DNA of 64,000 bases from Anaerolineales bacterium. Its GTDB lineage: Bacteria; Chloroflexota; Anaerolineae; Anaerolineales; Villigracilaceae. Where the stretch lies: NCBI GenBank assembly GCA_016934715.1, contig JAFGSI010000048.1, forward strand, positions 62,001-126,000, written 5' to 3'. Below, piece by piece: positions 47,901 to 55,178 of the stretch. The notes under the pieces are model-generated. The model was not told the origin of the DNA and ran no database searches. It was given only the letters and a program-made list of their open reading frames with translations. The translations under genes were made by a program, and so were the position numbers. How positions within the stretch are numbered: the first letter of the stretch is position 1; every line of letters starts with the position of its first letter.

Positions 47901-49862
47901 TCAGATGTTGATCCACACGTTCATCTGCGTCTCCCCGCGGTTGGCCCACACCTGGTAGGGAATGGCGGTGAAAATCCGACCGTCCGTGGTTTCACCGCGC
48001 AGGACCCGAATCCCACCCAGCAGGTCCGGGTCTGCTTCGACCTGCAGCGTCTCCGCTCGGATGCGGGCGGCGAACAAGTCCAGGCCGGGGTTGTCGATGC
48101 TCTCCAGGCAGTAGACCAGCGGGCCGCATGTCAGGGCGACCTGGGCGTGGTGCTGGCGCAGGCGTGGGGAGGCCCGCCGCAGTGTCACCGGCATCTCGAA
48201 GTCGATCTCGAGCGTATCGCCCGTGGACCAGGTCCGGCTGACCGGCAGGAACCAGGCCTGGCGCGGTTCGTAGCCGGAATCAGCCTCTCTTGTGATCCCG
48301 GTGGGACCCGGCGGTGGTGGAGACCAGCTTTCCCCGTTGATCTGGAGCGTGAACTTGCCCGCCCAGGAGGGGATCCGCAGGTGGAGGGTAAAATCGGCCC
48401 GCCCCTGCGGATCGATCTCGATCCGGACCCTGCCGACCCACGGCAGGCCGGTTTCCATGTCGATCTTCCACTGTCCATTGACCATTGTCTGGCTGCCAAT
48501 GTACTGGTGGATCCAAAGGTCGTTCTGGTCGAAGGAATAGATATATTTCCCCAGCGAGGCCCAGGTGCGCGACAGGTTGGATGGGCAGCAGGGCACGGCG
48601 AACCACGGTTTGCGGGTCACCCCGCCGCGGCAGGCCAGCGGGTTATTGTAGAGATAGTCGTCGCCGTCCAGGCCCATGCCGACCGACGCGGCGTTGTACA
48701 GCTGCCACTCGAACAGGTCGCTGTAGCGGGCCTGGCGGGTGGCCAGGGCCAGTTCCCAGTTCCAGAACAGGCTCGCCAGGGCGGCACAGGTCTCAGCGTA
48801 AGCGTACTCGGGATCGAGTTCATCATCCTGGCCGAAGCCTTCCAGCCCGGGCACCGCTCCCAGCCCTCCGGTGACGTACATCCTCCGGGTGACCATCCGC
48901 TCCCAGGCCGCTTCCATCGCAGGCAACAAGGACCGGTCGCCGGTCAGGCGATGCAGCATGGCGACCGCTGTCTCGAGGTAGCCAAAGCGGACGGCGTGCC
49001 CGACCGGGACGACCTGGCGGCGGATCGGGGCGTGCATCTGGAAGTATTTTCCGGTGAAGGCGTTCAACATCCAGCGCAGGTGTGAGGTTTTGGGGGCCTT
49101 GGCGAAGTTGCCGGGTGGAAGCTGGAATCCGGCATGTTGGGGATGGGCCTTCAGGTAGGCCCGCCGCTGCTTCCTGACGATCTTCCTGCGCTGCTCGACC
49201 CGGCGATTCTCCGCAAGGATCCAAGGGAAGAACGGCTGCGCCTGGCCGCGGCGCTCAAGGAAGGCCCGCGCCAGATCGAGATAGCCGGCGTGGCCGGTGG
49301 TTTCGTAGAGGCGCAGCAGGGCGATCTCCACCTCCTCGTGGCCGGAGGTGCGGGCCGGGCCAGATTCCAGAAAATCGCGCACCAGCCGGTCGGCGGCCTT
49401 GCGGGCGATCGTCAGGCCGGAATCGATCCCGGTGGCTTCGTAGTGCGAGACGCCTGCCTCGATCAGGTGGCCGTGACAGTACAGTTCGTGCTCGATCATC
49501 AGGTTTTCCCAGCGCTGGAGAGGAAAGTGCAGCTGGTTGTATGTGTAGATGTAGCCGTCGACCATCTGGGCCCGGGAGAGCAGGTCGATGAAGCCATTCA
49601 TCAGACGCACGAGCTTCTCCGATGGCTGGGTGGCGTGGACCCGGGCGGCGGCGTCGAGCCACTTGTAGGCGTCCGAGTCTGCGAAGAACCAACCCTGGCG
49701 GAGGCCGTCTATTTCACCAGCGGCGAGGCGGAAGTTGTCGATGCAGCCGCTCTCTTCGAGCATCCGCCACTGGTGGAAAATGGCTGTCCGGGCGTTGGTC
49801 TCCAGGCGCGGGGTCCAGAAGGCGTCATCGATGCTGACCTGGCGGGGGGAAAGGGTGTTCAT
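47901..49862 (-). CDS. beta-L-arabinofuranosidase, glycoside hydrolase family 127
   Basis: 653 residues. It is a GH127 (former DUF1680) enzyme that releases beta-L-arabinofuranose. The catalytic zinc-cysteine site is recognisable: YAETCAALASLFWNWE supplies Glu and one Cys, and FAVPCCPSNLSRTWASLG supplies the nucleophile Cys and its neighbour, as in Bifidobacterium HypBA1. An (alpha/alpha)6 barrel precedes beta-sandwich domains. There is no signal peptide, so it is cytoplasmic, acting on imported sugars. I chose the ATG of MNTLSPRQVSIDDAFW; a TACAAT lies six bases upstream. The catalytic activity on this particular substrate is inferred. Confidence 0.9.
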   Translation of the reverse strand: MNTLSPRQVSIDDAFWTPRLETNARTAIFHQWRMLEESGCIDNFRLAAGEIDGLRQGWFFADSDAYKWLDAAARVHATQPSEKLVRLMNGFIDLLSRAQMVDGYIYTYNQLHFPLQRWENLMIEHELYCHGHLIEAGVSHYEATGIDSGLTIARKAADRLVRDFLESGPARTSGHEEVEIALLRLYETTGHAGYLDLARAFLERRGQAQPFFPWILAENRRVEQRRKIVRKQRRAYLKAHPQHAGFQLPPGNFAKAPKTSHLRWMLNAFTGKYFQMHAPIRRQVVPVGHAVRFGYLETAVAMLHRLTGDRSLLPAMEAAWERMVTRRMYVTGGLGAVPGLEGFGQDDELDPEYAYAETCAALASLFWNWELALATRQARYSDLFEWQLYNAASVGMGLDGDDYLYNNPLACRGGVTRKPWFAVPCCPSNLSRTWASLGKYIYSFDQNDLWIHQYIGSQTMVNGQWKIDMETGLPWVGRVRIEIDPQGRADFTLHLRIPSWAGKFTLQINGESWSPPPPGPTGITREADSGYEPRQAWFLPVSRTWSTGDTLEIDFEMPVTLRRASPRLRQHHAQVALTCGPLVYCLESIDNPGLDLFAARIRAETLQVEADPDLLGGIRVLRGETTDGRIFTAIPYQVWANRGETQMNVWINI

Positions 49863-49868
49863 AAGGTG

Positions 49869-49874
49869 ATTGTA
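49869..49874 (-). promoter_or_regulatory. possible -10 of the GH127 gene, leaderless geometry
   Basis: TACAAT on the minus strand ends six bases before the GH127 ATG. No Shine-Dalgarno sequence and no convincing -35 are visible. Confidence 0.4.
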
Positions 49875-49949
49875 CAACATGTTTACCCATGAATGATGGG
49901 AAAGGACGCATGTTGTGCAAGCGCGTCTGGAGTCCGCTGGGTGGCTGAC

Positions 49950-49978
49950 TTGCACGAAAACCGGCTTTCGGATAAACT
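49950..49978 (+). promoter_or_regulatory. possible promoter of the DUF6062-like gene, leaderless geometry
   Basis: TTGCAC, a 17-base spacer and TAAACT end six bases before the ATG. There is no Shine-Dalgarno sequence. Confidence 0.45.
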
Positions 49979-49984
49979 GAATCA

Positions 49985-50704
49985 ATGGCCGATGCACAGA
50001 CCGCTTATGAACTGCGCCTGTTGTTCAAGTATCGGGGCTGCCCGGTGTGCGCCCTGGCGCAGCGCACGGCGACCAGATACGTGGACACGCTCTTCTATGA
50101 GAGCGTATTGGATCCCGGCCGGCGGGAGCGCATCCGGGCCAGCCTGGGGCTGTGCTACGAGCACGCCTGGCTGACGATCGAGTCGAAACTTTCCGATGCC
50201 CTCGGGCTGGCGATCGTCTACCACGACCTGGCAGCGACCTTGCTTGCGCGCCTGCCCGAAAAGCCCGACTCGGGTGGGCGTGAGCGCAAGGCCTTAGTCG
50301 AGGCCCTCAGCGAGACCAGGCTCTGCCCGGCCTGCGAGACGCGCCGCACGGTCGAGGAGCGGTCGATCAAGGTTCTCGGAGAGGCGCTGCAGAAGGACGA
50401 TTACCTGGACGACTACCGTAAGTCGGACGGCCTGTGCCTGCCGCACCTGCGCCTGATGATCGAAGAAACCGGCAACCAGAAGGTGCTTGCAGCGGTCATC
50501 AACCACCAGCGCCAGCGACTGGAGGGTTTGAAGGAGGAGCTCTCTGAGTTCATCCGTAAGAACGATTACCGTTTCCAGGATGAGGGGATGGGCGCTGAGC
50601 GCGATTCATACCAGCGAGCCGCCGAACAGGTCACCGGAAAACGCCGCCCGGCCAGCAAGGCGGACCTGTTCCCCGAGAAGGGCAAGCGCCCAGGACAGGA
50701 ATAG
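49985..50704 (+). CDS. DUF6062-like cysteine-rich protein
   Basis: 239 residues, cytoplasmic. Four Cys/His clusters come in two similar halves: GCPVC with LCYEH near residues 18-55, and LCPAC with LCLPH near 110-155. This pattern suggests two metal-binding sites, zinc or Fe-S. Similar proteins are annotated DUF6062; the function is unproven. The C-terminal 60 residues are charged and helical. It is followed 9 bp later by the flavin reductase gene, so the two are probably cotranscribed. Confidence 0.75.
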   Translation: MADAQTAYELRLLFKYRGCPVCALAQRTATRYVDTLFYESVLDPGRRERIRASLGLCYEHAWLTIESKLSDALGLAIVYHDLAATLLARLPEKPDSGGRERKALVEALSETRLCPACETRRTVEERSIKVLGEALQKDDYLDDYRKSDGLCLPHLRLMIEETGNQKVLAAVINHQRQRLEGLKEELSEFIRKNDYRFQDEGMGAERDSYQRAAEQVTGKRRPASKADLFPEKGKRPGQE

Positions 50705-50713
50705 GAGCAGACC

Positions 50714-51247
50714 ATGACTGAACGCATCCCGATCCCGATCGAAGACTTCCTCGCCCGGCCGTACAGCCTGTGGGAGAAGCGGTGGCTTCTGTTGAGCAGC
50801 GGCGATCTTGCTGCCGGGGACTTCAATTGCATGACTGTCTCGTGGGGCAGCCTGGGCCAGGTCTGGAACCGCCCGCTGGCGCAGATCTTTGTCCGGCCAC
50901 AGCGCTACACCTACCAGTTCATGGAGAAATATGCGACCTTCACGCTGTGCGCCTTCGCGCCCGCCTACCGCGAGGCCCTCAACCTGCTCGGGACCCGCTC
51001 CGGCCGTGACGGGGACAAGCTTGCCGCAGCCGGCCTGACCCCTGCGGCCGCGACAGCCGTTGCCGCGCCGGTCTACGACGAGGCCGAGCTTACGATCGAG
51101 TGCCGCAAGATGTTCTGGCAGGACTTCGGCCCACCGAACTTCGTCGACCCGTCCATCGAACGCAATTACCCAACAGGGGATTACCACCGCATCTATTTTG
51201 GGGAGATCGTGGCGGTGACGGGAAGTCAGGCCTTCGTAAGGAAATAA
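50714..51247 (+). CDS. flavin reductase-like FMN-binding protein
   Basis: 177 residues, the length of flavin reductase-like domain proteins. The block FNCMTVSWGSLGQVWNRPL with FVRPQRYTYQF and FTLCAF is typical of the flavin-binding split barrel. AGGAG lies 8 bases before the ATG. It probably binds FMN and carries out NAD(P)H-dependent flavin reduction or a related redox reaction. Pairing with the DUF6062-like gene may mean a common redox role. Confidence 0.88.
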   Translation: MTERIPIPIEDFLARPYSLWEKRWLLLSSGDLAAGDFNCMTVSWGSLGQVWNRPLAQIFVRPQRYTYQFMEKYATFTLCAFAPAYREALNLLGTRSGRDGDKLAAAGLTPAAATAVAAPVYDEAELTIECRKMFWQDFGPPNFVDPSIERNYPTGDYHRIYFGEIVAVTGSQAFVRK

Positions 51248-51348: not shown

Positions 51349-52683
51349 CTATCGGTTGCCCGCCTTGATCGCCAGCCCGGCAGCGACGCTGCTGAAGGCA
51401 TTCGAGGCCTTGATCTTCTCGGGGCCGAAGATCCTCCCCAGCATCTCCGAAAACAGTGGAATATTGGACGACCCGCCGGTCTTGACTACCGCCTCGATCT
51501 GGCCAGGCTCGAGGCCCGAGGCGGCCAGTGTCTCGAGCAGGACGGCCTCGATCTTCGCCCGCAAGGACTCGATATCGGCCTCGAACTGGTTCCGGGTGTA
51601 GAGTTCCCACAGGTCGATGCCCGGGTCATCGAGGGCGATGACTGCCGCACCCAGGCTGGAGAGGGTGATCTTGGCTGCCTCGACCCGATAGTAGAATGAG
51701 AAGGCCAGATCGTTGTAGATCAATGTCTGCAGGGCCCGCAGTCGGACCGGGACCATGCCGGTCCGGATGGCCTTTTCGAGCACGTTGCGGTTGATCGGGG
51801 TTGCCATCTCGGGGAGGACCGCCCATTCCGGCACAGCCGCGATCAGGTCGAGCAGCTCCGGCTGGTGCGCCACCTGCCCGGCGCCGAAGAAGGGCATCAG
51901 GCGCTGCTCGATGATCGCCCGGTCGAAGTCAGATCCGGCGATGTCGATCCCGCCGCTGGCGTAGACCACGCGCCGGTCCTGCTCGCCCAGGCGCATGATG
52001 GCGATGTCAAGTGTTCCACCCCCGAAGTCGAAGACCAGCACGGTCTCGGGTTTCGTGAGCGACTGTTCGTAGAACAGGGCTGCCGCCACCGGCTCGAATT
52101 CGAAGTCGACCTGTTCGAAGCCGGCGGCCAGGGCCGCCTGGCGCAGGGTCTCCTCCGCCTGGATGTCCAGGGCGGGATCGTTGGAGAACTTGACTGGCCG
52201 GCCCAGTGTGGCGCCGCTGATCTTTTCCCCCAGCACCTGCTCGGCGCGCTGTTTGAGCTGGCTCAGGTAGGTCTGCACCAGGTCGCCGGCAGCGTAATGG
52301 CGTTCGAAGATGTGCGTCCCCTGAAAGCGGGCTCCCTGCTTACGCAGGGCGGTCTTGAGATACTGCAGCAGGCGCCCGGGCTGGAGTTCGTCGACGAAGA
52401 CATAGACATCGCGCACGTAGTGCATGTCAGCCCCGGTGTACTCGATCTCCCCGGCCCGCTGGCGGACGTAGTGCCGTTGGCGGTCGACGTTGTGACGGTA
52501 GTAGAGTTCGATGGCCTCCTGGCCGATGTAGGCCTCGTAGTCACGCGTGATGTACAGGATGGTCTTGACCACCTCGGGCTGGACCCCGCGGCGGTCGACC
52601 GGCAGCAGGCGGACCCGGGTGCCATCCCACAGGGCCACGCCGGAGTTGGATGTGCCGAAATCGAGCCCGACCTTGATCGTCAT
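51349..52683 (-). CDS. Hsp70-family ATPase without substrate-binding domain
   Basis: 444 residues. The nucleotide-binding fold of Hsp70/actin is clear: VGLDFGTSNSGVALWDG (phosphate 1), VFDFGGGTLDIAIM (phosphate 2) and VVKTGGSSNIPLFSEML (adenosine). It is closest to YegD-type proteins and lacks the Hsp70 substrate-binding domain. Its ATG overlaps the stop of the upstream coiled-coil/propeller gene by 4 bp, so the two proteins are probably made together. A chaperone-like or scaffold ATPase role is likely; the client is unknown. Confidence 0.88.
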   Translation of the reverse strand: MTIKVGLDFGTSNSGVALWDGTRVRLLPVDRRGVQPEVVKTILYITRDYEAYIGQEAIELYYRHNVDRQRHYVRQRAGEIEYTGADMHYVRDVYVFVDELQPGRLLQYLKTALRKQGARFQGTHIFERHYAAGDLVQTYLSQLKQRAEQVLGEKISGATLGRPVKFSNDPALDIQAEETLRQAALAAGFEQVDFEFEPVAAALFYEQSLTKPETVLVFDFGGGTLDIAIMRLGEQDRRVVYASGGIDIAGSDFDRAIIEQRLMPFFGAGQVAHQPELLDLIAAVPEWAVLPEMATPINRNVLEKAIRTGMVPVRLRALQTLIYNDLAFSFYYRVEAAKITLSSLGAAVIALDDPGIDLWELYTRNQFEADIESLRAKIEAVLLETLAASGLEPGQIEAVVKTGGSSNIPLFSEMLGRIFGPEKIKASNAFSSVAAGLAIKAGNR

Positions 52684-53843
52684 CGGACCCGCTCCGGGCC
52701 GGCGAGGCCGGCGACGGCCAACAATCCGGGCCCGGCGTCGAGCGCCCCGGCCCCGCGCACTTCTGCCGCTGTCTGGACCGTGAACCGGCCCCCGGCGTCA
52801 AGGGCCACCACCCTGGTCGCGGTGTCGACCGCCAGCGCCGCGGCCAGGCGGGTGCCCTTTTCCAGGCGCGCCGGCGGGATCAAGGTCAGGCCCTTTGCCA
52901 TCGGTGATGTGGACGGCTCGAGGTCTGTTCCAGTCCGCAGGAGGACCTTGCCCTCCTCGGTCAGGGCCAGCAGGTCGTGCCCCTGGCCGAGGAGGAAAGC
53001 GGCGATCAGGTGGTCGGTAGCCGGAAGGCGGATGCGCTCCTCAGCGGAGTAGGACAGATTGTCCACTTCCAGGGAGACGACGTGGCCTTCGCGGCTGACC
53101 AGCGCAAGTCGGTCGCCCTTGCGCCCCAGGGTCAGGGCGAAGGGCTGATCGGACTTCTGGACCACGCCCTTGCCGAGGAAGCGCTTGCCCAGGATTGTCT
53201 CTGCCATCGTGGCCAGGGTTTTCTTAACCCAGCCGCGCCGGCTGATCTGCAGGAAAAAGTGGGCCAGGGGCAGGTCGGAGAGTGGGGCCAGGCAGGCCAG
53301 CAGTTCGCCGCCGTGGGGCTCGTCGGGCAGCGAGCCCTGCTCGAAGGTCGTTGCCAACCCGGGGTCGACGAGGCGGATCTGCTCGACGGGCCGGGCCGAG
53401 ACGCGTCCCGAGTTGAACAGGAAGAGCAGTTCCTCGTTCGGGAAAACGGCCAGCAGGCACGGTGGCTCGCCGGCCGTCTTCAGGCCGCCGATGAAGTACG
53501 GCAGGTCTTCCTCAGCATTGAAGCACAGGATGCGGCCCCTCGCATTGTAGGCCAGCAGGCGGAGGGGGGCCGGCGGGGCCTGGGCCGACTCCTTGGGGAC
53601 CAGTGCGATGTCCCCGAAGCGGCGCCGGAGAAGGTCGAGCTGGTATTCCAAATGTGCAAGGCGCGACTCGTACTCTTCAACGCGGGCGCCGGACTGCAGG
53701 GCGATGTTCTCGGCGGACAGTTCCTCGTTGCGAGCGTCAAGTTCGCGCAACCGGTCGGTGACATACTTGAGGACCAGTGTCGCCGATTCGGGCCGCTGCT
53801 CGACTTCCTTGAGCCATTCCTTGATTTTTTGAGGGGTGATCAT
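52680..53843 (-). CDS. coiled-coil protein with GyrA C-terminal-like beta-propeller
   Basis: 387 residues from the ATG with GGAG about 9 bases upstream. A helical/coiled-coil part (about 10-95, with LRELDARNEELSAENIAL) is followed by repeated four-stranded blades that resemble the GyrA/ParC C-terminal pinwheel: ILCFNAEEDLPYFI, LALVSREGHVVSLEV, LLALTEEGKVLLR and RVVALDAGGRFTV. It lacks the gyrase catalytic domain and tyrosine. It overlaps the Hsp70-like gene at ATGA. DNA wrapping or protein docking are both possible; neither is proven by sequence. Confidence 0.75.
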   Translation of the reverse strand: MITPQKIKEWLKEVEQRPESATLVLKYVTDRLRELDARNEELSAENIALQSGARVEEYESRLAHLEYQLDLLRRRFGDIALVPKESAQAPPAPLRLLAYNARGRILCFNAEEDLPYFIGGLKTAGEPPCLLAVFPNEELLFLFNSGRVSARPVEQIRLVDPGLATTFEQGSLPDEPHGGELLACLAPLSDLPLAHFFLQISRRGWVKKTLATMAETILGKRFLGKGVVQKSDQPFALTLGRKGDRLALVSREGHVVSLEVDNLSYSAEERIRLPATDHLIAAFLLGQGHDLLALTEEGKVLLRTGTDLEPSTSPMAKGLTLIPPARLEKGTRLAAALAVDTATRVVALDAGGRFTVQTAAEVRGAGALDAGPGLLAVAGLAGPERVR

Positions 53844-53867
53844 GCAAGAGGCTCCTTGGGTGATTCT

Positions 53868-53896
53868 ATTATAAAGACGTAGAGAATTTCCAGCAA
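53868..53896 (-). promoter_or_regulatory. promoter of the propeller/Hsp70 operon
   Basis: On the minus strand TTGCTG, a 17-base spacer and TATAAT end 24 bases before the ATG. Confidence 0.75.
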
Positions 53897-54059: not shown

Positions 54060-55178
54060 CTATGGGCAGGTGTGGAAATATTGGTCGGGGTCAGGGCATG
54101 GGATCACGCAAATCCATGTGTCGGAATTCGGATCATATACCTCACAGCCGGTCGCTCCTCCACCGCTGGGTTCCTGGGTGGGTTCGGGCGGTGGGGCTGC
54201 AACGATGCGGACGGTTACCGTCAGGCTGGTCTCGCTTGCCCGGAAATCGTTGATGCTCTGCCCCGTGCTGTCGGCGGGATGGTAGAGTGCGTGGATCGTC
54301 TGTTCTCCGTCAGTGTGGAAAACCAGATCGAAGCTGGTGCTGCCATCGACCAGGTCGGCTTCGAGTACTTCCGTGCTGTAATCGATCAACAGGACCCCGG
54401 TTGGCGCCGGTCCCCCGTTCGGCACTGAGACGGTTGCCGTGACATGGACCGTCTGACCGACTCTGGGGGAGGTGTTGTTGAGGGTGATGGTGATCTCGGT
54501 CGCATAACTGACAGTGTGCAGGATGGAGGCTGTGCTGCCCACCCAGGTGCCGTTGGTGGGATAGGTTGCCGTAATCCTCCAGATTCCCGGCCTGGCGAAG
54601 GTCATTGTGCACCGGCCCTCCCCGTTGGATAGGTTCGCTGTGCAGCCGCCTTCTTGGCTGTCGCTGTTAAGCGTCACCATGCCGATGGGCGCTGGCCCTG
54701 CGGTCGGACTCACCAAGACCCCGAATTCGACGGACTCCCCCGGGCTGGATGGTTCCGGACCGATGCTTGTGAAGGAAAGGTTCGTCAGGGTGTTGGGCGT
54801 GGGTGTCAGCGAGGCAACCACGGTGTAAGGCCGCTGGACGTATTCCCCATGATAACTCGAATCGCCGCTGTAATTGATCGTGATGGTATGGTCGCCGGCT
54901 GAGTAAAAGACCACCTGGCAACTTCCTCTGCCCTCCACCAGGAGGAAAGAACATCGTGTATCGCCGTCGACCGTCATCGTGCCTGTGCCGGGATAAGCCT
55001 TGCCAAGCACAGAGACGGTAACCGTGATCGGCTGGTTGATGCCGGTCGATACAGGCGTGATTGACTCGATCACCATGTAATCCCTTTCCGCTGGCATATT
55101 GCAACTGAGGGTGATGACGGCGAGCCATGCCCAACAGGTCAATGGCACGATAAGGCGGTTTTTACGTTTCATACCCAT
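54060..55178 (-). CDS. lipoprotein with bacterial Ig-like repeats
   Basis: 372 residues; AGGAG lies 8 bases before the ATG. The signal peptide ends in the lipobox ITLSC. Three repeated Ig-like units of the Big_3-type pattern follow: GINQPITVTVSVLG with GTGTMTVDGDT, PGESVEFGVLVSP with PIGMVTLNSD, and VGQTVHVTATVS with PTGVLLIDYS. Each ends in a motif like GDHTITINYSGDSSY. A Pro-rich linker and a Cys-containing tail close the protein. It is probably a surface adhesin or structural protein; there is no catalytic domain. Confidence 0.82.
   Translation of the reverse strand: MGMKRKNRLIVPLTCWAWLAVITLSCNMPAERDYMVIESITPVSTGINQPITVTVSVLGKAYPGTGTMTVDGDTRCSFLLVEGRGSCQVVFYSAGDHTITINYSGDSSYHGEYVQRPYTVVASLTPTPNTLTNLSFTSIGPEPSSPGESVEFGVLVSPTAGPAPIGMVTLNSDSQEGGCTANLSNGEGRCTMTFARPGIWRITATYPTNGTWVGSTASILHTVSYATEITITLNNTSPRVGQTVHVTATVSVPNGGPAPTGVLLIDYSTEVLEADLVDGSTSFDLVFHTDGEQTIHALYHPADSTGQSINDFRASETSLTVTVRIVAAPPPEPTQEPSGGGATGCEVYDPNSDTWICVIPCPDPDQYFHTCP

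Follow-up and report, generated by a model that had tools for sequence, protein, structure and literature searches.

What work can an Hsp70-type ATPase do when it lacks the domain that grips peptides, and when the gene it overlaps encodes a pinwheel of the kind found at the end of DNA gyrase? The question is raised by two genes in a 64,000-nucleotide stretch of DNA from an Anaerolineales bacterium (GenBank assembly GCA_016934715.1, contig JAFGSI010000048.1, positions 62,001 to 126,000; this whole stretch is called the window below). Few molecular machines have been studied as closely as Hsp70, and in the textbook version of it ATP is coupled to a clamp that binds peptides. The two window genes lie on the minus strand and overlap by 4 base pairs (bp), an ATGA in which the stop codon of the first gene and the start codon of the second are combined (coordinates in Table 1); an initial annotation of the window had pointed out this overlap, and both frames do share these four bases. 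The first gene encodes a 387 amino acid (aa) protein made of an N-terminal coil and a pinwheel, here called the partner, and the second encodes a 444-aa ATPase. We think, with a probability of roughly 0.55, that the pair is one dedicated ATP-driven machine, in which the Hsp70 domain would be the switch, the pinwheel the effector arm, the coil the tether and a protein the probable ligand.

The 444-aa protein is an Hsp70-type ATPase domain over its full length, without a substrate-binding domain. Its residues 4-440 align with positions 3-445 of the 450-position NCBIfam model PRK11678 (YegD) with an expectation value (E) of 3.3e-50, and the Pfam HSP70 model matches at 2.1e-30. Since the match to an ATPase-only model reaches residue 440 of 444, no room is left for a substrate-binding domain, in agreement with the initial annotation, which had described an Hsp70 fold lacking one. 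The score of 171.2 bits is below the curated YegD equivalog cut-off of 331, so the protein counts as related to YegD without being certified as one. A 13-member alignment of the ATPase shows no variation in the phosphate loops, and by pattern loops 1 and 2 are present in 32 and 32 of 32 close family members, in 13 and 13 of 13 divergent operon members, and in 27 and 28 of 28 complete fusions (below); the full-length nucleotide-binding domain with both loops that marks the Hsp70 superfamily is thus in place. Actin-like proteins share this fold, and MreB models match the 444-aa protein as well (2.5e-10 in Pfam and 9.4e-9 in NCBIfam). Adaptors link ParM-type filaments to cargo, and by analogy the ATPase might form filaments to which the coil-pinwheel protein would link a cargo. 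The shared fold and the MreB matches are consistent with such a cytoskeletal pair, but we consider it improbable, because the Hsp70 and YegD models match far better (3.3e-50 vs 9.4e-9 in NCBIfam) and a search of 72,556 plasmid records gave no match to the pinwheel gene.

The 387-aa protein carries a GyrA/ParC-type pinwheel by both fold and sequence homology. Its similarity to GyrA as a single sequence is weak (5.2e-5 against PDB sequences and 0.0041 against NCBIfam), and a Pfam search with it gave no GyrA match, just a coiled-coil domain of unknown function at 0.048. When a profile of the 34-member close family was used, all 13 PDB sequences matched at E ≤0.001 were GyrA or topoisomerase IV, the best at 2.9e-18. 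The predicted structure (predicted local distance difference test score, pLDDT, 86.2; predicted template modelling score, pTM, 0.77) gave 20 Foldseek matches at E ≤0.001, and all 20 are gyrase or topoisomerase IV. A second structure aligner places residues 91-382 on E. coli GyrA with a Z score of 27.4 (280 residues, 2.7 Å), where the best unrelated chain scores Z 4.0; matches of the coil helices in residues 1-51 to assorted long helices (Z ≤4.0) were taken as noise. The initial annotation had allowed that the propeller might model as an unrelated fold; it models as a GyrA pinwheel, and the description of the protein as a coil plus a gyrase-type pinwheel stands. The catalytic N-terminal part of gyrase is absent, as coil and pinwheel alone make up the 387 aa. 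On another contig of the same genome (C75) an 877-aa frame has a C-terminal part that matches the pinwheel; judged by its size and tail this frame is probably gyrase A, and the pinwheel of the pair is therefore not the only gyrase-type tail in the genome.

Are the two proteins partners, as the initial annotation had proposed from the overlap of their genes? Among 101 genomes, the window's own included, 17 match the partner, three of them (G022, G092 and G096) only through GyrA-like frames of 821-842 aa, which leaves 14; the ATPase is found at E 1e-30 in 16 genomes, namely these 14 and also G065 (with two genes) and G069. In 13 of the 14, among them the window's own genome, ATPase and partner genes are neighbours in a constant order, and in the remaining one (G033) they lie on different contigs, with the partner reaching a contig end. 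A pattern scan of named genome contigs, many of which belong to the same genomes as the 14, found 33 partner loci, all of them Chloroflexota by title. The ATPase gene is directly downstream at 32 of the 33, with gaps of -4 to +179 bases and with the 4-bp overlap at 15 of the 32; a contig ends inside the ATPase at one of these (L062), and at the single exception (L059) it ends inside the partner. Across 400 phylum genomes, the partner and the ATPase are strongly matched (E <1e-160) in the same five, and the other 43 matches to the partner profile are weaker (best 3.8e-15) and lie in frames of 670-1449 aa, as for gyrase-type subunits. In the Anaerolineae grouping of Chloroflexota genomes (hereafter the class), all six genomes with a strong pinwheel match also have a strong Hsp70 match, and at 12 further class loci with 13 Hsp70 genes the pinwheel gene is always upstream on the same strand. 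One of these loci (L206, in G813) has two YegD-like ATPase genes in tandem behind a single coil-pinwheel gene. Viral contigs gave no relative (22 stretches fit the pattern and none was confirmed).

The two domains also occur in single polypeptides. In the phylum genomes the first such fusions were those of G451 and G233, in each of which one frame encodes both a YegD-like ATPase and a long tail, and G069 has a third; the first two tails match GyrA-type models at 2e-6 and that of G069 weakly (0.0031), and a three-member profile of these tails finds GyrA in PDB at 2.6e-9. A class-wide search gave 107 matches in 98 of 396 genomes, from which 104 genes were examined (two G622 matches are one frame, and the truncated G746 and G723 were left out). 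Among these YegD-like genes 30 have a fused C-terminal pinwheel (two cut by a contig end, one without a start) and 18 are preceded on the same strand by a separate pinwheel gene (five of the 18 are close family; G813 and G479 are included), while 30 have a tail of ~160 aa, four have a tail of ~85 aa, and 22 have neither pinwheel nor long tail in the available flanks, which are short for some (a contig end truncates two of the 22). The fused extensions are 323-368 aa long where no contig end cuts them, and although they were picked by tail length alone, 28 of the 30 match an NCBIfam GyrA model at E ≤0.01; every PDB match of the fused-tail profile up to 0.1 is GyrA or topoisomerase IV (best 8.5e-22). 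When 12 separate divergent partners and two close ones are taken together, 13 of the 14 match GyrA, and their PDB match is 6.6e-26; the 12 had been picked with a GyrA-tail profile, so this match is partly circular, which does not apply to their position or their coil. The pinwheels resemble each other whether fused or not (hhalign probability 98.2, E 3.1e-14). In a phylogenetic tree the operon group has the G451 and G233 fusions next to it (98/96) and that of G069 is placed elsewhere, with long branches flagged and the later class fusions left out. When a fusion protein was compared with the plasmid records, 212 of them matched; none of the 212 covers 80% of it, and the best 15 of the 212 match its Hsp70 half only. 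The other tails on class YegD-like ATPases are of two kinds. A profile of the ~160-aa tail (L157, L171, L159 and 27 more loci) matches a GH2 beta-galactosidase (6hpd, residues 864-987, E 3.6e-7) and gave no convincing Pfam match; the ~85-aa tails, at L198, L201, L202 and L203, are alike among themselves.

The adjacency in 13 of 14 genomes and at 32 of 33 contigs, together with the fusions, makes a strong case for a partnership of the ATPase and the coil-pinwheel protein, and bears out the initial annotation, which had also made co-occurrence in other genomes a test of its proposal: the genes are together elsewhere, and even fused. The association is wider than could be read from the window alone. 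Could the pinwheel protein nevertheless be a client of a free-standing Hsp70-like protein, or merely its co-transcribed neighbour, with no joint machine? The 22 of 104 class genes with neither pinwheel nor long tail in their available flanks are on the side of this explanation, because they indicate that the ATPase can do without a pinwheel, but the many single-polypeptide fusions and a gene order that is constant over deep divergence make it very unlikely indeed.

If the fusions join the two domains covalently, what would join them in the unfused form? In the model of the 387-aa protein, DSSP assigns helices at residues 4-16, 18-51 and 53-76, followed by strands, and in 34 aligned rows R17-P18 is invariant and G52 nearly so. 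Although the 12 divergent partners, compared at full length, have an identity of just 21-50% with the first of the set, their N termini align with the coil of the window protein (L164 least clearly). When the coils of these 12 and of two close members were made into a profile, this profile detected all 34 close partners and, with the threshold relaxed to E 1, none of 28 fusions, none of 30 proteins with the ~160-aa tail and none of 38 other YegD-like frames; its best E against eight orphan pinwheel proteins (below) is 0.0019, which is no clear match. The first 80 residues, searched against 31 genomes, gave two weak extra matches (E 0.005 and 0.06; L110 and L111), of which L110 seems to be an unrelated 144-aa frame. 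Among the listed matches of the partner profile in 170 class genomes, those that begin at profile position 1 and lie in a short frame, or beside one, are in G479 and G000, and both genomes hold the ATPase. The presence of the coil in the unfused form and its absence from the fusions suggest that it is probably a tether or dimeriser of the separate partner.

We picture the dedicated machine as follows. The Hsp70 nucleotide-binding domain would be the switch, binding ATP, hydrolysing it and changing shape. As effector arm, the GyrA-type pinwheel would stand in for the missing substrate-binding domain, in trans in the window and in cis in the fused relatives, and the ATP cycle would move or gate this arm. 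The N-terminal coil would dock the separate partner on the ATPase, or dimerise the partner, and would be dispensable in the fusions, from which it is absent. In this picture the two folds, the conserved phosphate loops, the adjacency and order of the genes, the fusions and the restriction of the coil to the unfused form are observed by computation, and the physical contact, the ATP-coupled motion and the tether role of the coil are what we infer from them.

What might such an arm hold? One candidate is DNA: the rim of the pinwheel could hold it as in gyrase, with the Hsp70 domain loading or releasing it in a cycle of ATP-driven wrapping and unwrapping. Along its entire length the pinwheel is, after all, a homologue of a domain that wraps DNA, and the net charge of some fused pinwheels is positive, reaching +10. 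A GyrA-box-like pattern, applied to rows of which a few are cut by contig ends, is present in none of the 76 Hsp70-linked pinwheels (0/34 close, 0/12 divergent and 0/30 fused) but in seven of the eight orphan pinwheel proteins of the class; it finds the motif in just two of five GyrA/ParC tails of the clade, which makes this control an imperfect one. ParC is not known to carry the GyrA-box, and absence of the motif therefore counts against membership in GyrA only. The net charge of the close-family pinwheels (33 full-length ones) is -11 to 0, compared with +5 to +12 in the five GyrA/ParC tails of the clade; fused pinwheels range from -4 to +10, divergent ones from -5 to +4, and the orphans are near zero. 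Because orphan pinwheels that have the GyrA-box are near zero too, charge does not decide the matter and is a hint only. Arginines of Salmonella GyrA bind DNA (PMC7210945). Motif and charge, both read from sequence, lean away from gyrase-like DNA wrapping, which we regard as unlikely for the pair; the pinwheel most likely binds a protein ligand, and DNA is the less likely one. The initial annotation had suggested a DNA- or protein-remodelling machine. The partnership on which this depended has held up; the DNA-remodelling role has not fared as well, given the motif count and the low charge of the close family. The orphan gyrase tails (L217-L224; frames of 374-440 aa, eight examined among more short frames listed) may still wrap DNA.

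Several observations weigh against a dedicated machine. Pinwheels are missing from 56 of the 104 class YegD-like genes (30 + 4 + 22), and 22 phylum loci outside the class (L078-L100 minus L095) have none, either fused or within up to 1.5 kilobases; the pinwheel is therefore not essential to this Hsp70 family. At L207 (G479) the coil-pinwheel and ATPase genes are separated by a further frame, of 409 aa, and the tether role of the coil rests on a pattern of presence and absence. A model of the pair was built as one chain from a relative (L064) whose in-frame genes were read through a TAG stop, with three further read-through rows and 28 pinwheel-only rows (an earlier alignment with Hsp70-only rows misplaced the last blade and was dropped). 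This model is poor (pTM 0.44, mean pLDDT 67), especially in the ATPase half, where the alignment is shallow, and so leaves contact between ATPase and partner neither shown nor excluded. The literature searched held no experiment on such a pair. The open-licence articles in that search also contained no report of an Hsp70-pinwheel pair or fusion.

A broader and more tentative proposal, which we hold as possible though somewhat short of an even chance, is that the Hsp70 ATPase of the class is a general ATP switch, whose substrate domain has been swapped for another beta-rich module, either a pinwheel (fused or tethered by a coil) or a domain like the C-terminal part of a GH2 beta-galactosidase.

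The features of the locus are collected in Table 1. Runs of AAGGA or AAAGGA occur in several relatives at positions comparable to that of the ribosome-binding-site-like sequence, and the chance expectation given for the promoter match means that it deserves little weight.

Table 1. Features of the Hsp70-pinwheel gene pair, in window positions
Feature	Position	Strand	Basis
Coil-pinwheel gene, 387 aa, first of the pair	52680..53843	-	frame, profile, predicted structure
N-terminal helical coil, residues 1-78	53610..53843	-	DSSP of model, conservation, coil profile
GyrA/ParC-type pinwheel, residues 92-383, without GyrA-box-like motif	52695..53570	-	profile, predicted fold, motif pattern
YegD-like Hsp70 nucleotide-binding domain, 444 aa, without substrate-binding domain	51349..52683	-	Pfam, NCBIfam, phosphate loops
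4-bp stop/start overlap, ATGA	52680..52683	-	direct from sequence
Ribosome-binding-site-like AAGGAG, 8 nucleotides ahead of first ATG	53852..53857	-	direct from sequence
Weak sigma-70-like promoter match 5' of the pair	53863..53892	-	1 found vs 0.4 expected by chance

Upstream of the pair and on the same strand is a gene for a bacterial Ig-like repeat protein (54060-55178; Big_3_5 in three stretches). On the other side two tandem plus-strand genes face the pair and encode a DUF6062 protein (49985-50704) and a flavin-reductase-like protein (50714-51247). A GH127 beta-L-arabinofuranosidase gene (47901-49997; Pfam 6.5e-78) is also near, and it has no relative at the other 13 loci compared. No neighbour family is common to more than two of the 14 pair loci, so no constant J-protein or GrpE gene stands beside the pair. 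The same count bears on a linkage to TerY-P or CoCoNuT systems and gives no sign of one, although kinase, phosphatase, VWA and McrBC-type genes were not searched for by name.

If the proposed machine is real, a clamp-less lineage that works with a gyrase pinwheel, in cis or in trans, would mean that the Hsp70 ATPase can drive other arms, and it would offer a function that can be tested, both for pinwheels that are not part of gyrase and for the ATPase-only (YegD-like) Hsp70s, which have been little studied. Should the general-switch proposal also be true, Hsp70 chaperoning would be one use of a switch that drives quite different arms. Because each fused form is one protein of ~800 residues, the idea lends itself to a direct test.

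How does the pair compare with known systems? With DnaK and HscA the 444-aa protein has the ATPase domain and the phosphate loops in common, and it lacks their substrate-binding domain. E. coli YegD is closer, being likewise an ATPase-only Hsp70 of ~450 aa to which the match is full-length, but the window protein reaches only about half of the score that the family cut-off demands, and here a pinwheel is next door or fused. PMC13232886 describes E. coli YegD as presumably an HSP70 chaperone, and in its account yegD lies immediately downstream of yegI, with the yegI product dephosphorylated by PphC. The CnuD and CnuCD proteins of CoCoNuT systems likewise bring an Hsp70-type domain into a coiled-coil-rich system, fused or separate according to type. 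PMC11090510 describes them as members of larger defence operons in which a substrate-binding domain is present and the Walker-A-like motifs are degenerate; in the window pair the phosphate loops are intact, the substrate-binding domain is absent and the conserved unit is two genes. The orphan GyrA-tail proteins are, like the partner, stand-alone pinwheels that follow an N-terminal helical stretch, but unlike the pair they have the GyrA-box-like motif in seven of eight cases and no YegD-like frame in their flanks (up to 1.5 kilobases). The C-terminal pinwheel of GyrA and ParC has the same fold as that of the window protein, and the homology is detectable over the whole domain; the window protein differs in having neither the catalytic part nor a GyrA-box-like motif, and its pinwheel is preceded by a coil and tied to an Hsp70 ATPase.

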